From Bacilli bacterium (GTDB taxonomy: Bacteria; Bacillota_I; Bacilli_A; RFN20; CAG-826), in assembly GCA_017447725.1 (NCBI GenBank), contig JAFSMX010000012.1:1-37513 (forward strand): DNA of 37,513 bases, in the 5' to 3' direction. Every line of letters begins with the position of its first letter. Positions within the stretch are counted from its first letter, which is position 1. Below are positions 18,764-24,118 of the stretch, one piece after another. The notes under the pieces are model-generated. The model was not told where the DNA came from, did not search any database, and saw nothing but the letters and a program-made list of their open reading frames with translations. The position numbers and the translations under genes were made by a program.

Positions 18764-18784
18764 ATAAAGCATGTTTTACATGCC
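18764..18784 (-). terminator. Weak hairpin at the end of the first endonuclease I gene
   Basis: The minus strand reads GGCATGTAAAACATGCTTTATC: a 6-bp stem GCATGT/ACATGC that overlaps the stop codon, then a short TTTAT. It could attenuate transcription between the nuclease and metG but the T-run is poor. Confidence 0.35.
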
Positions 18785-19669
18785 ACAAATTTGACGAGTT
18801 GTTGCGTTGGTTGAACCCCAAATTTTGCAAGCATATTCTGGGTGATCAACGAATGGGTTGCGGTTGCCTTGTTTGTATTGAGAACCAGAATTGCGGTAAA
18901 GTTCTTGATCACGAACCGCGTATTGGAGGTTCCATCTTAACATGTCGGAGAGTTTGCCCATTGTATTTGGTCTACTCTTGTAATCGACATTGTCGATATC
19001 TTCAATCTTTAATACCGGATCTTTAATAGCAACGTAGAAAATAATACGAGCAGCCTCTCCACGGTATGCTTCAATTTTGTATCCTGGATCGAAGTTTGGA
19101 CTAGATTGCCCATAGAAAATATTGCTACGGCTTTGGTTTGCGTTTGGGTCGGTTGGACGAATGTGTAAGCAATCCATTTCTACTGGATCGGTTTCTTCAT
19201 CACGACCATTTTGTGTTCTAGAAGCTGGCCAAACGTGTTCACGGTTCCATCCTGAACCAGATACACTCGTAATGCTTTGATCTTCATAGAAGCCATAAAT
19301 CTTTCCATCTTCACCATGGTTATCGGTATAGAAACCTGCACCAAGGATTGAGGAATAACCGGTTAATTTTGTAATCTTGCTTTCATTAAAATCGTGGAGT
19401 GCATTGATGAGATCGGTTCCTGTTTTAGAATCATCTAATCCGTTGTAATAATCTCCAACAGGGATGTCATAGACATATTTTGTTCCGAGGATACGTCCAG
19501 TTTCGGAAATTTCCTTTCCTGAAACAGGCCCTACTCTTCCAGTTCCGCCACCGCCACCGCCTTGGCTAGAATCGGTTGTGGAGCGCTTTTTGCTTTTACG
19601 TGGGGTGTTACATCCAGTTAAAAGTAAAGCAATTAGTGGAATGATTAATAGTTTTTTGTTTGAGATCAT
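18776..19669 (-). CDS. Secreted endonuclease I family lipoprotein (copy 1)
   Basis: A 297-residue lipoprotein: hydrophobic signal with lipobox LTGC (lipid Cys20), a short Lys/Ser/Gly-rich spacer (residues 21-50 with six Gly in a row), and an endonuclease I (EndA/NucM) domain. The His-Me finger catalytic motif is WNREHVWP (His145) and the metal-binding Asn region is DPNANQSRSN (174-183); the domain ends with NPFVDHPEYACKIW. It probably degrades DNA outside the cell for nutrients. I chose the ATG at 19669, which has a GAGGAGG Shine-Dalgarno site 8 bases away; an in-frame TTG farther upstream lacks one. A tandem paralogue lies upstream. Confidence 0.88.
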   Translation of the reverse strand: MISNKKLLIIPLIALLLTGCNTPRKSKKRSTTDSSQGGGGGGTGRVGPVSGKEISETGRILGTKYVYDIPVGDYYNGLDDSKTGTDLINALHDFNESKITKLTGYSSILGAGFYTDNHGEDGKIYGFYEDQSITSVSGSGWNREHVWPASRTQNGRDEETDPVEMDCLHIRPTDPNANQSRSNIFYGQSSPNFDPGYKIEAYRGEAARIIFYVAIKDPVLKIEDIDNVDYKSRPNTMGKLSDMLRWNLQYAVRDQELYRNSGSQYKQGNRNPFVDHPEYACKIWGSTNATTRQICGM

Positions 19670-19739
19670 TACTTTTGCCTCCTCGGACAATATCTAACTA
19701 ATAATATAACATGATTTTATCATCATACATTATTGAAAC

Positions 19740-20924
19740 TTATTTAGACCAGATACGTGCGGCGTATTCTGGGTGATCAATAAATGGGTTTCTATTATGT
19801 TGAAAATCAGTGAAGATTAAATCATTACGATGCTTTTCAAATTCATCAACTGGGTCTTCTTGGTGCCATTGTAGAAGGACATCAAGATGTCCCCACCATC
19901 CATCGGAATTATTATTTGTGTCTTCAAAAGATAAATATAATGGGCAGTTTGTGTCAGATCCATCTGCGTATCGAGTTGCCATATAAAAGAGTGCTCTAGC
20001 GACATCGCCTCTATCACATGCTTGAGGCATGTAACAAGCATTTGGAAGAAGTAAACCGGAGTTATCTCCATTACCATCTTTTACATATGTAACACCGCTC
20101 TGACTTGTGCTTAAATTGTTGAAACAATAATTACTTCTTGTTCCGTTGTTGTTTTTATCCGAAGCTCTTAAATGATGTAAATCGCTATAAGAATAGTAAG
20201 AATCACTACTAAATGACCCATTAGATTTCGCCCAAATATGTTCCTTGTCCCATACATCGGTGTAATCATTTCTCGTATAAGCCTTATCTTCATTATCGTG
20301 CAAATAAATAATGTGCATATAAGGATTGGTATCGTTTTTATCTGGAGATTTATTCCAATCACGATCGGTATAAGTCATACAATCAGCCAAAGATTTGTAG
20401 GCAATTTTTGTATGGCCGTTTTTGATAATTCCATTAAGTTTATTTCGCAATGTTTCGCCAGAATCAGTATCTTTTACGCTAGCGTAATATGCATCCACAA
20501 CTGGATCAACCGAACTACTTGAAGTAGGGATTGGTGTTGAAGAACTTGAAGGTTGAGGAGGAACAACAGAGCTACTACTTGGTGCAGGTGGAATAACGCT
20601 TGATTCACTGGTTGGAGCAGGTGTTGAACTGCTACTTGGTGCAGGCGGAATAACGCTTGTTGCTGAAGTAGGCGCCGGTGTTGAACTACTCGAAGTAGGA
20701 GGAACCTCGCTAGTTTGGGAAGTTGGAGTAGGTTCGCTACTTGATGAAGTTCCGGCACTTGTTGGAGCAGCTCCAGAAGAAGATACCCCAGCAGAAGATG
20801 AGGATATTTCCGAAGTTAAAGAACTCGAACTATTTTTCCTTGGTTTCTTCTTCGGGGTGGTTGTACAACCACTAATAGTTAGAGCGAGTAAACTTAGTAA
20901 AATTCCGGAGATATTCTTGCGCAT
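19740..20924 (-). CDS. Secreted endonuclease I family lipoprotein (copy 2) with Ser/Pro/Thr linker
   Basis: A 394-residue paralogue of the neighbouring nuclease. The signal peptide ends in the lipobox ISGC (lipid Cys20). Residues about 31-139 are a low-complexity Ser/Pro/Thr/Ala linker containing a 19-residue repeat (SSSSTPAPTS-x-x-SVIPPAP) in tandem, likely a flexible, wall-spanning or glycosylated stalk. The catalytic domain follows: WDKEHIWAKS (His229), DLHHLRASDKNNNGTRSN (248-265), and the terminal NPFIDHPEYAARIW. It probably holds the nuclease away from the membrane to cut DNA in the surroundings. The start is not preceded by a Shine-Dalgarno site. Confidence 0.88.
   Translation of the reverse strand: MRKNISGILLSLLALTISGCTTTPKKKPRKNSSSSLTSEISSSSAGVSSSGAAPTSAGTSSSSEPTPTSQTSEVPPTSSSSTPAPTSATSVIPPAPSSSSTPAPTSESSVIPPAPSSSSVVPPQPSSSSTPIPTSSSSVDPVVDAYYASVKDTDSGETLRNKLNGIIKNGHTKIAYKSLADCMTYTDRDWNKSPDKNDTNPYMHIIYLHDNEDKAYTRNDYTDVWDKEHIWAKSNGSFSSDSYYSYSDLHHLRASDKNNNGTRSNYCFNNLSTSQSGVTYVKDGNGDNSGLLLPNACYMPQACDRGDVARALFYMATRYADGSDTNCPLYLSFEDTNNNSDGWWGHLDVLLQWHQEDPVDEFEKHRNDLIFTDFQHNRNPFIDHPEYAARIWSK
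20581..20694. repeat. 57-base tandem repeat in the nuclease linker
   Basis: Two copies of a 57-base unit begin with GGTGCAGG(T/C)GGAATAACGCTT at 20581 and 20638 on the plus strand, encoding the 19-residue Ser/Pro repeat on the minus strand. The copies differ at several positions, so the duplication is not recent. Such repeats can change copy number by slippage in multiples of 19 codons. Confidence 0.7.
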
Positions 20925-20989: not shown

Positions 20990-21012
20990 TAAAAAACCGT
21001 CGATTGACGGTC
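20990..21012 (-). terminator. rpmE terminator
   Basis: The minus strand stem ACCGTC / GACGGT with an AATC loop runs into TTTTTTATT, 16 bases after the rpmE stop. Confidence 0.85.
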
Positions 21013-21027
21013 ATTTTATGTATTAGA

Positions 21028-21231
21028 TTACTTAATTCCGTATTTTTTATTGAATCGATCAACACGGCCATCGGCAGCAACGAAACGTTGTTTGCCAGTG
21101 TAGAATGGGTGACAGTTGGCACAGGTATCAACCTTAATGTCTTTTCTTGTGCTGTGGGTTTTGAATTTGCTACCACAGGAGATGCAAGTCACTTCTACTT
21201 CGTAAACTTGTGGGTGAATATCTTTTTTCAT
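21028..21231 (-). CDS. rpmE: 50S ribosomal protein L31, zinc-binding type
   Basis: A 67-residue L31. The zinc-binding form is shown by Cys16-x-x-Cys19 (CISC) and Cys37-x-x-Cys40 (CANC); zinc-free paralogues lose these. The N-terminal [16 protein letters not shown] and the central [11 protein letters not shown] are typical. It is monocistronic, with its own promoter, a structured leader of about 50 bases and a terminator. An AGAAGGAG Shine-Dalgarno site precedes the ATG at about 9 bases. No YkuU-like zinc-free copy is in the window. Confidence 0.96.
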
Positions 21232-21239
21232 AAATCTTT

Positions 21240-21282
21240 AACTCCTTCTGCCTTAGGGCTCAAGTGGCTCCTAAAGAAAGTT
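21240..21282 (-). promoter_or_regulatory. Structured rpmE leader that can hide the Shine-Dalgarno site
   Basis: On the minus strand, CTTTAGG pairs with CCTAAGG (7 bp, one G-U) around a 12-base loop, and just outside it AACTTT pairs with GGAGTT (6 bp, two G-U), which contains the ribosome-binding core GGAG. The two stems are in register, with a CAGAA bulge on one side. Autoregulatory leaders of L31 are known in several phyla, so this is a plausible site where free L31 blocks its own translation. The pairing is read by eye. Confidence 0.5.
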
Positions 21283-21290
21283 GCTCGTTA

Positions 21291-21319
21291 ATGATACCAA
21301 TGAGATTTAGCAAAATCAA
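21291..21319 (-). promoter_or_regulatory. rpmE promoter
   Basis: TTGATT, exactly 17 bases, then extended -10 TGGTATCAT on the minus strand. The predicted mRNA has a leader of about 53 bases, in contrast with the leaderless promoters elsewhere in the window. Confidence 0.7.
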
Positions 21320-21392: not shown

Positions 21393-22790
21393 ATGCCATC
21401 GAAATCAGCTTATTTATCAATTCTAAATACTGCTCTTTCTACTGGTGGAGACTATGCAGAAATCTATATTGAAGAAAAGATTTCTCAAGTAGTATCCATT
21501 GAAAATGGAAAAGTAGATGCTTCTAGTGTTTCTAAAACTTATGGAGCAGGTCTTAGAATCTTACAAAACGTAAATAGTGTTTATGGATACACCAATGATG
21601 TTTCTACAAAAGGACTCCTTGAATTAGCTAAATCTCTTTCTAATTCATTTAATGGAAAACAAGTTCTCAAAGTAGAAACATTAAAAACCAAACATTTTAA
21701 AAATAATCATCCTGCTCAAGAACCACTTAGTGAGGTGAGTGTCGAAGACAAAATTAACTACATTCGACCAGCAGAAAAGGTAATGCGTGAATACGACAAA
21801 AGAATCGTTCGTACAAAAGCCGCATTCGCTAATTCTCAATCAAAAATTACGATTATTAACTCAAACGGATTAATTGTTCACGATGAAAAGGAACGTGGAC
21901 GTGCGATCTTATCTGCCATTGCTTCAGATGGAGAAAAATACGAAACAGCATTTGAAGGTCCAGGAGCAATGTCCGGATTTGAACATTTTAAAAACGATGT
22001 TGATCTAGTTGCTCTAGCAAAAGAAGCAGCAAAATCAGCAATTACAATGCTTTCTGCTAAAGATTGCCCAAGCGGAAAAATGACTGTTGTTATCGGTAAT
22101 GGTAACGGAGGTGTCATTTTCCACGAGGCTTGTGGACACTCCTTAGAAGCTACATCAGTGTCGAAAAACTTATCTGTTTTCTCTAACAAACTTGGAACGC
22201 AAATTGCTTCCAAAGTTGTTAGTGCTGTCGATGATGGAACAATCGCCAATTCCTGGGGATCAAATAACATCGATGATGAAGGGAACAAAACTCAAAAAGT
22301 CGTTTTAATTGAAAACGGCATTCTTAAAAACTACCTTGTCGACACTGTTGGTGGACGCCGTATGGGCATGAAACCAAACGGATGTTCTCGTAGAGAATCA
22401 TATAAGTATGAACCAACATCTAGAATGTCTAACACATATATTTGTAACGGAAAGTCAACTCCAGAAGAAATTATTGCTGCAACCAAACTTGGTTTATATG
22501 CAAAAACACTTTCTGGTGGTTCAGTTAATCCGGCAACCGGAGAATTTAACTTTGGTTGCAGCGAGGCCTACATCATTAGAGATGGAAAAATCTGCGAACC
22601 AGTTCGTGGAGCTTCTTTAATTGGTACAGGCGGAGAAGTATTAATGAACATTGATATGGTTGGAAATGATTGTGACCGTAGTAATGGAATGTGCGGTGCT
22701 TCTAGTGGTTATATTCCAGTTGATATTGGTCAGCCTACAATCCGTGTTCAAAACATTTTAGTCGGTGGAAATGGAGGAGAATTAAAATGA
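21393..22790 (+). CDS. tldD: Metalloprotease TldD
   Basis: The catalytic subunit of the TldD/TldE zinc protease, which trims unfolded or leader-bearing peptides and, in some bacteria, matures ribosomal natural products such as microcin B17. The zinc motif HEACGH (His244, Glu245, His249) is preceded by the usual glycine-rich stretch GNGNGG and followed by SLEA; the C-terminal part contains the TldD signature with MGMKPNGCSRRE and CGASSGYIPVDIGQP. Length is 465 residues. The stop is UGA inside the ATGA overlap with tldE, and the pair is translated together. No precursor-peptide gene is nearby, so a housekeeping proteolytic role is more likely here. Confidence 0.9.
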   Translation: MPSKSAYLSILNTALSTGGDYAEIYIEEKISQVVSIENGKVDASSVSKTYGAGLRILQNVNSVYGYTNDVSTKGLLELAKSLSNSFNGKQVLKVETLKTKHFKNNHPAQEPLSEVSVEDKINYIRPAEKVMREYDKRIVRTKAAFANSQSKITIINSNGLIVHDEKERGRAILSAIASDGEKYETAFEGPGAMSGFEHFKNDVDLVALAKEAAKSAITMLSAKDCPSGKMTVVIGNGNGGVIFHEACGHSLEATSVSKNLSVFSNKLGTQIASKVVSAVDDGTIANSWGSNNIDDEGNKTQKVVLIENGILKNYLVDTVGGRRMGMKPNGCSRRESYKYEPTSRMSNTYICNGKSTPEEIIAATKLGLYAKTLSGGSVNPATGEFNFGCSEAYIIRDGKICEPVRGASLIGTGGEVLMNIDMVGNDCDRSNGMCGASSGYIPVDIGQPTIRVQNILVGGNGGELK

Positions 22791-24118
22791 GATTTAATAC
22801 AAAAAAATTCTTTGAATTAGCTAAAGCTCATGGTTTTGAAGCAGCTGATTTAAACATTTCCAAAGGCCACTCAATGTCAATGACTCTCTACCATGGGGAA
22901 ATTGAAAACTATAGCGAAGAAAACACCACTGATGCTGTTGCTCGCGGAATTATTAATGGAAAACTCGGTGGATGTGTCACAGAAAAATTTGATAAGAACA
23001 CGATTGAATTCATGATTGATTCAATTGAGAAGACTGCAAGAGTTATTGAAACTAACGACCCAGTAATTATTTATAAAGGAAGCAAAAAGTATCATCGCGG
23101 AAGTTACTATAACAAAGCACTCTTTGAAGTTCCTTTTGAAGAAAAGAAGAAAATCCTTTTTGAAATTGAGAAGAAACTTTTTGCTTACGACAAAAGAATC
23201 AACGAAGTCGCTAGCGTTTCCTATTCCGAAAGTAGTGATGATTCAATCCTTCAAAACTCGTATGGTTTGAAACTGAAAACAAAGAAATCTGATTTCTCGA
23301 TTGTTGCCCAAATTACCGCAAAAGAAAAAGACGAGATTCGCTCAAATTATGCGGTTTTTGCTGGAAATAATTTAGAAGAATTCGATATTGATAAATTTGT
23401 TAAAGAATTAGCCGATGAAACACTTAAAAAACTCGGCAGTTCTCAATGCAAATCCAAAAAATACCCAGTAATTTTAAACCCAGATTGCAGCGCTACACTA
23501 ATTCGTGCTTTCTTATCTAGCACCAATGCCGAAGATGTTCAAAAGAATAGTTCATTATTCATCGGAAAACTTCATCAACAAATTGCTAGTAAAAAGTTAA
23601 CAGTCACTGAAAACCCACTTACAAAAAATGTTTTCTTCGACTACTACGATGATGAGGGTGTTGCTATTAATAAGAAGGACATTGTTAAAAAAGGAGTTCT
23701 TCAAACTTACCTTTATACATTAGAAACCGCTGCCAAGGATGGAGTTGAACCAACTGGTAATGGATACCGCGGAGCGGGTAAAGCTAGCGCTGGCTTAGGT
23801 TACATCATTGTTAAACCGGGACGTAAATCGGAAGAAGAAATGATGTCTTCGATTAAAGAAGGTGTCTACATTACTGACTTAGAAGGTTTACACGCTGGCA
23901 TGAACGCTAGAAGCGGAAACTTCTCCTTACAATCCCAGGGATTTATGATTCGCGATGGAAAACTTGCTGAACCTCTCTCCTTAATTACTGTTTCTGGCAA
24001 CTTAGTGGAGATGTTTAATAACATTAAAGACGTTGGATCGAATTCAAAATTCCTTTTAGGAAGCAAAGCTTCTTGTCCATCAATAAGCTTTCAAAAATTG
24101 TTCGTTTCTGGCGAATAA
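22787..24118 (+). CDS. tldE: TldE (PmbA) subunit of the TldD/TldE protease
   Basis: The non-catalytic partner of TldD. It shares the TldD/PmbA fold but lacks a HExxxH motif, and shows the typical C-terminal features: a GNGYRG loop, the VKPG segment, and ITDLEGLHAGMNARSGNFSLQSQGF. Length is 443 residues. It starts at the ATG of the ATGA that ends tldD. The two proteins form a heterodimer that encloses the zinc site. A strong bidirectional terminator follows. Confidence 0.9.
   Translation: MRFNTKKFFELAKAHGFEAADLNISKGHSMSMTLYHGEIENYSEENTTDAVARGIINGKLGGCVTEKFDKNTIEFMIDSIEKTARVIETNDPVIIYKGSKKYHRGSYYNKALFEVPFEEKKKILFEIEKKLFAYDKRINEVASVSYSESSDDSILQNSYGLKLKTKKSDFSIVAQITAKEKDEIRSNYAVFAGNNLEEFDIDKFVKELADETLKKLGSSQCKSKKYPVILNPDCSATLIRAFLSSTNAEDVQKNSSLFIGKLHQQIASKKLTVTENPLTKNVFFDYYDDEGVAINKKDIVKKGVLQTYLYTLETAAKDGVEPTGNGYRGAGKASAGLGYIIVKPGRKSEEEMMSSIKEGVYITDLEGLHAGMNARSGNFSLQSQGFMIRDGKLAEPLSLITVSGNLVEMFNNIKDVGSNSKFLLGSKASCPSISFQKLFVSGE

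Follow-up and report, generated by a model that had tools for sequence, protein, structure and literature searches.

A predicted rpmE leader RNA in a Bacilli genome, best read as a divergent variant of the L31-Firmicutes leader

Autoregulation of ribosomal protein L31 is established in Escherichia coli, where two reports (PMC10931766, PMC9825181) describe a hairpin adjoining the Shine-Dalgarno site through which the L31 mRNA is repressed by L31 itself and also by its paralogue L31p. The L31-Firmicutes leader (Rfam family RF03156) is a prediction by Eckert and Weinberg (2020, PMC7247131); according to that paper, the five L31 motifs appear structurally unrelated to one another. Here we consider the rpmE leader found in the window, by which we mean the whole stretch of 37,513 nucleotides of DNA that was analysed. 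The draft assembly of the source genome amounts to 0.9 Mb and consists of 39 contigs. When L31 sequences are compared, the nearest relatives bearing a name are Bacilli that have not been cultured; Candidatus Fiminaster equi is one of them.

The rpmE transcription unit and its leader

The hairpin under consideration belongs to the minus-strand 5' leader of rpmE, a gene that begins with an AUG at 21231 (Table 1). A first-pass annotation had drawn two nested stems at 21240-21282, and both complementarities are indeed found there, the outer one, AACUUU/GGAGUU, being made of four Watson-Crick pairs and two G-U pairs. A sigma-70-like promoter (TTGATT, 17 nt, TG-n-TATCAT) is predicted at 21319-21291. 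The promoter scan is without significance by itself, three such sites being found against 2.5 expected by chance; in the relatives, however, TTG-like sequences are enriched at the same distance as the -35 element of the window, and the end of the -10 element lies 14-15 nt from the stem in 74 of 124 family leaders, compared with 14 nt in the window. Because the -10 elements of the relatives stand at an equal distance to the stem, we infer from the promoter that the rpmE transcript starts at approximately 21284-21285, some 8-9 nt ahead of the stem, in which case the two nested stems would take up nearly the whole 5' UTR. The terminator-like hairpin that follows the gene sets rpmE apart as a unit of one gene.

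The neighbourhood holds a divergently oriented pair of TldD/PmbA-like metalloprotease genes (21393-24118, plus strand), whose best NCBIfam matches fall under the cut-offs. On the minus strand lie two adjacent genes (18776-19690 and 19740-20924) for secreted proteins of lipoprotein-like character. Both proteins match the Endonuclease I domain (PF04231), at 71.9 bits in the first and 121.5 bits in the second, and the second (19740-20924) contains a Ser/Pro/Thr-rich linker partly encoded by a 57-bp tandem repeat at 20575-20687.

Folding energy was considered as evidence for the hairpin and dropped, since the z-scores of the leader are near zero: they are no better than chance at -0.84 for a 54-nt and -0.63 for a 72-nt leader. 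A 121-nt fold reaches -2.68, but it takes in bases upstream of the predicted transcription start; on the plus strand, the region shows no advantage in folding over its shuffled versions. With the fold energies of the leader thus unremarkable, the reality of the stems had to be decided by comparison. Within the predicted transcript, the inner stem has a probability of ~0.9, and the CUUU at the 5' side is predicted to pair with GAAG (21248-21245), not with GGAGUU; the Shine-Dalgarno core GGAG itself occupies 21245-21242.

Table 1. Features of the rpmE unit and of its leader, in the order of transcription (coordinates of the window)
Feature	Position	Strand	Basis
Predicted -35 element TTGATT	21314..21319	-	With the -10 element: 9/12 consensus matches, 17-nt spacer, TG ahead of -10
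Predicted extended -10 element TGG-TATCAT	21291..21299	-	Promoter scan and spacing in relatives
Outer stem of the first-pass annotation, AACUUU 21282-21277 / GGAGUU 21245-21240	21240..21282	-	Complementarity present; conserved helix unsupported
Conserved 5' box ACUUUC, adjoining the stem, whose first base is the final C of the box	21276..21281	-	Conservation in leaders
Inner stem, 5' strand CUUUAGG	21270..21276	-	Covariation
Upper part: bulged A 21269, two more pairs GC/GC (21268-21267 with 21259-21258), apical loop	21258..21269	-	Predicted probability 0.92-0.93
Inner stem, 3' strand CCUAAGG	21251..21257	-	Covariation
Conserved GGCAGAAGGAG: stem end, invariant C, Shine-Dalgarno site	21242..21252	-	GGC invariant; aligned to the 3' end of RF03156
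rpmE, ribosomal protein bL31, 67 aa, zinc type (two CxxC pairs)	21028..21231	-	PF01197 108.2 bits; NCBIfam L31 equivalogs above cut-off
Intrinsic-terminator-like hairpin after rpmE	20995..21012	-	2 found in the region against 0.1 expected

Conservation of the stems and of the 5' box

L31 was found in 135 of the 146 family genomes searched, and 130 of these loci were read, five not having been fetched. In 128 of the 130 loci, a hairpin could be fitted with a 5' box on one side and GGC-purines-GGAG on the other, giving 117 distinct leaders, which were aligned without reference to structure. One locus outside the 128, L179, dropped at the parsing of the start codon, is nonetheless matched at 50.6 bits by the covariance model described below, and another family leader, L144, fits neither the hairpin anchor nor that model. 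L144 has a different hairpin, ahead of a GCCGAAGGAG end, that is matched by no model used. A second set comprises 55 leaders from other families, picked because the covariance model matched them (8 of the 55 score below 24 bits); it too was aligned without structure, with a weak second place in L254 omitted and the ranges of L258 and L282 lengthened.

In the 117 family leaders, 97.0% of the 930 cells of the inner stem are paired, as opposed to 75.6% after shuffling and no more than 59.1% when the strands are slid, and the covariation score is 0.605 against 0.180. Six of the eight pairs show changes on both sides, while two at the base of the stem, C-G and U-G, never vary. Such both-sided changes occur within single genera, in 30 genus-by-pair cases spread over 16 of 31 genera, and hence do not go back to one inherited event. 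The leaders of other families behave alike (97.7% paired against 77.1%; score 0.623 against 0.230). In the genus of the window, a bulged A stands above the seventh pair in 11 of 12 rows and is followed by two further pairs, the first of which, as read from the alignment, is G-C in four of these rows and C-G in seven. The inner stem is real and is conserved as an RNA structure. This part of the first-pass annotation is borne out by the relatives, in which the compensatory changes it had named as a check are abundant.

The same cannot be said of the outer stem, which the annotation had nested around the inner one so as to include GGAG. Its pairing in the 117 family leaders, 73.1% of cells against 73.5% in shuffles, gives no sign of covariation; of its two outermost pairs, one fails in 77 leaders and the other in 65, and all six pairs are possible in only 23. 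The alternative register of minimum energy fares no better (87.0% against 87.2% in shuffles), and both were rejected as conserved helices. Ten of the 23 leaders able to form all six pairs belong to the genus of the window, which contributes 12 rows and shows one both-sided change at the outermost pair; the outer stem may therefore be specific to this lineage.

Outside the stem, two stretches are strongly conserved. The GGC ahead of the Shine-Dalgarno stretch is invariant in 117 of 117 family and 55 of 55 other-family leaders. The 5' box reads RCUUWC in most family leaders and RCUCUC in 24 of 117, so that CUU or CUC is present in all 117; the other families have CUU in 52 of 55 leaders, mostly as ACUUAC, and leaders of the Bacillus type, by inspection, are without the box. 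The box precedes the 32-position match to RF03156. Between box and stem the spacing is constant; between the best -10 match and the stem, by contrast, it ranges over 9 to 35 nt, which argues that the box goes with the RNA hairpin.

Relation to RF03156 and spread in the Bacilli

RF03156 matches the leader in the correct register at 18.2 bits, short of the curated cut-off of 33.3, so there is no gathering match at the leader, and a search of the source genome with RF03156 at E 0.01 returned no match. The sole Rfam gathering match in the window is a small SRP RNA (RF00169, 31719-31803, minus strand, 58.3 bits); the other sub-threshold Rfam matches in the region were set aside as chance-level. In a first test against the cut-off, all three leaders of the Bacillus type (Ureibacillus, Neobacillus, Sporosarcina) passed and none of 17 family leaders did. 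When 20 family leaders were searched with E-values up to 10 allowed, RF03156 matched 17, one of them above the cut-off (33.8 bits).

A covariance model was then built from the 117 family leaders. On the source genome, it gives 50.4 bits to the leader (21285-21239, ahead of the AUG), which was itself part of the training set, and finds no similar place elsewhere in that genome above 11.2 bits. Among 247 genomes of the class Bacilli, 239 of which contain L31, the model matches 152 at E 0.01. We compared 150 of its matches with the gene positions: 127 were in genomes with an L31 place listed (23 were in genomes without), and 126 of these 127, including 100 from families not used in training, lie 2-9 nt ahead of the L31 gene; the one non-adjacent match is a contig-end place with a score equal to that of the adjacent match in the same genome. 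RF03156 for its part matches 159 of the 247 genomes at E 0.01. Its best places overlap those of our model in 117 of 117 compared, a comparison restricted to genomes with a match to our model and omitting at least two second RF03156 matches (G031:C7:51531-51566 and G341:C20:999-1045) that do not overlap model matches. These two weak matches (25.7 and 26.1 bits, respectively) lie off the L31 leader and may reflect chance or a second target. Conversely, the covariance model matches leaders of the Bacillus type weakly, at the right place. In a phylum-wide search, the matches listed come from the same class only, and two small-genome families of the class (f5 and f16) have L31 and no leader among the matches listed; the leader may have been lost there with genome reduction.

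Judging from these sequences, the leader of the window and RF03156 are joined by an unbroken series of homologues, in which the window stands close to one end. The position ahead of rpmE, the register of the stem base and of the 3' end, the covariation and the homology through intermediates all agree with the L31-Firmicutes family, but the curated cut-off is not reached, and for this reason we call the leader a divergent variant, which is its best reading, and not a plain member. The suggestion that it might be a member or a variant of the known L31 leaders is thereby decided in favour of the variant: RF03156 aligns in register and is linked to it by intermediates, while remaining below its own threshold. 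The known range of the predicted L31 leader is thereby widened to uncultured Bacilli of the gut and to numerous other Bacilli families overlooked at the present Rfam cut-off, which is passed in 37 of the 247 genomes, a small number compared with those matched at E 0.01 by either model. It implies no change of principle and is a comparative extension of a known kind.

A model for rpmE control and its alternatives

We consider it likely, on the strength of the sequence comparison and of the analogy with E. coli, that the rpmE leader is an RNA operator of the L31-Firmicutes type through which L31 controls its own synthesis. The C/U-rich box, the 7-bp stem extended past the bulged A, and the GGC-purine stretch merging into the Shine-Dalgarno site would together constitute nearly the whole 5' UTR. 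Surplus L31 would bind the hairpin, and the bound protein would obstruct loading of the 30S subunit at the adjacent Shine-Dalgarno site, sterically and not through RNA pairing only, thereby repressing its own translation. Five nucleotides separate the end of the hairpin from GGAG, so that it would fall within the stretch covered by a 30S subunit. This mechanism is borrowed from E. coli by analogy, the operator there being a hairpin of another kind.

Let us assume, instead, that the RNA acts by itself, the box pairing with the Shine-Dalgarno stretch and lowering translation, or serving as a temperature or Mg switch, without any protein. The pyrimidine-rich composition of the box would suit such an arrangement, as would the ability of C7-G51 and U8-A50 to pair in 116 and 117 of the 117 leaders, respectively (these pairs are near-invariant and thus uninformative), and the predicted pairing of G21245 and G21242 of the Shine-Dalgarno site in the window. 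When pairing of the box is forbidden, the mean predicted accessibility of the Shine-Dalgarno core in 126 leaders rises from 0.416 to 0.525, and accessibility below 0.5 is predicted for 77% of native leaders compared with 67% of controls. However, the native mean equals that of 160 upstream-shuffled controls (0.425), 36 of the 117 leaders have a last box base that disrupts both registers of pairing, neither the outer stem nor the minimum-energy alternative covaries, and among the helices considered none that includes the Shine-Dalgarno site was found to covary. Sequestration by the outer stem, as proposed in the first-pass annotation, thus loses its footing, the more so as fewer than a quarter of the leaders can form that stem. 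Because the box and the Shine-Dalgarno site hardly vary, covariation cannot rule out a short contact between the two, and sequestration by RNA only, as far as alignments and folding predictions can tell, is not supported rather than disproved. As a full account of the leader, we regard it as unlikely.

Quite improbable, in our judgement, is a role in which the hairpin stabilizes or positions the 5' end of the mRNA, or presents the ribosome-binding site, without being the regulatory target of L31. Its location, at the very beginning of the transcript as predicted, is what one would expect in such a case, but the confinement of the hairpin to L31 genes (at all checkable places but one) is not, and the fixed GGC, together with the two unvarying pairs (C-G and U-G) at the foot of the stem, suggests sequence-specific recognition; moreover, the related family is a published prediction of an L31 leader (PMC7247131). 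That the box and the stem are promoter or initially transcribed elements acting at the DNA level, as their position ~14 nt after the -10 element might suggest, is hardly credible in view of the compensatory base pairing in the stem and of a box that keeps its distance to the stem and not to the -10 element.

Returning to the operator bound by L31, we may ask what the box contributes. One tentative idea, which we would rather doubt at present, is that many Bacilli families have a bipartite L31 operator, made up of the hairpin and of the RCUUWC box at the 5' start of the mRNA, and that L31, by binding both, locks the box onto the Shine-Dalgarno stretch. If true, this would be a switch in which protein binding stabilizes an otherwise weak sequestering helix. 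The box is missing from the present model of the family and offers a concrete target for studying how L31 recognizes its own mRNA.

With the E. coli or gammaproteobacterial rpmE leader, the window shares a monocistronic rpmE and a hairpin adjoining the Shine-Dalgarno site. The E. coli operator is set apart, by its description, through the irregular shape of its hairpin, which contains two internal bulges and is situated behind an AU-rich enhancer (PMC10931766), and repression by L31 or its paralogue is a feature of that operator which, in the window, we infer by analogy. Closer is the L31-Firmicutes leader. In contrast to it, the window has a longer stem with a bulged A and a larger loop; its GGC is followed by A where the family has G, and its conserved box falls outside the Rfam model. 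The two nevertheless have in common the same gene, a position directly ahead of the start codon, a single hairpin whose stem base is C-G and then U-G, and a 3' end of the form GGC-purines-GGAG.
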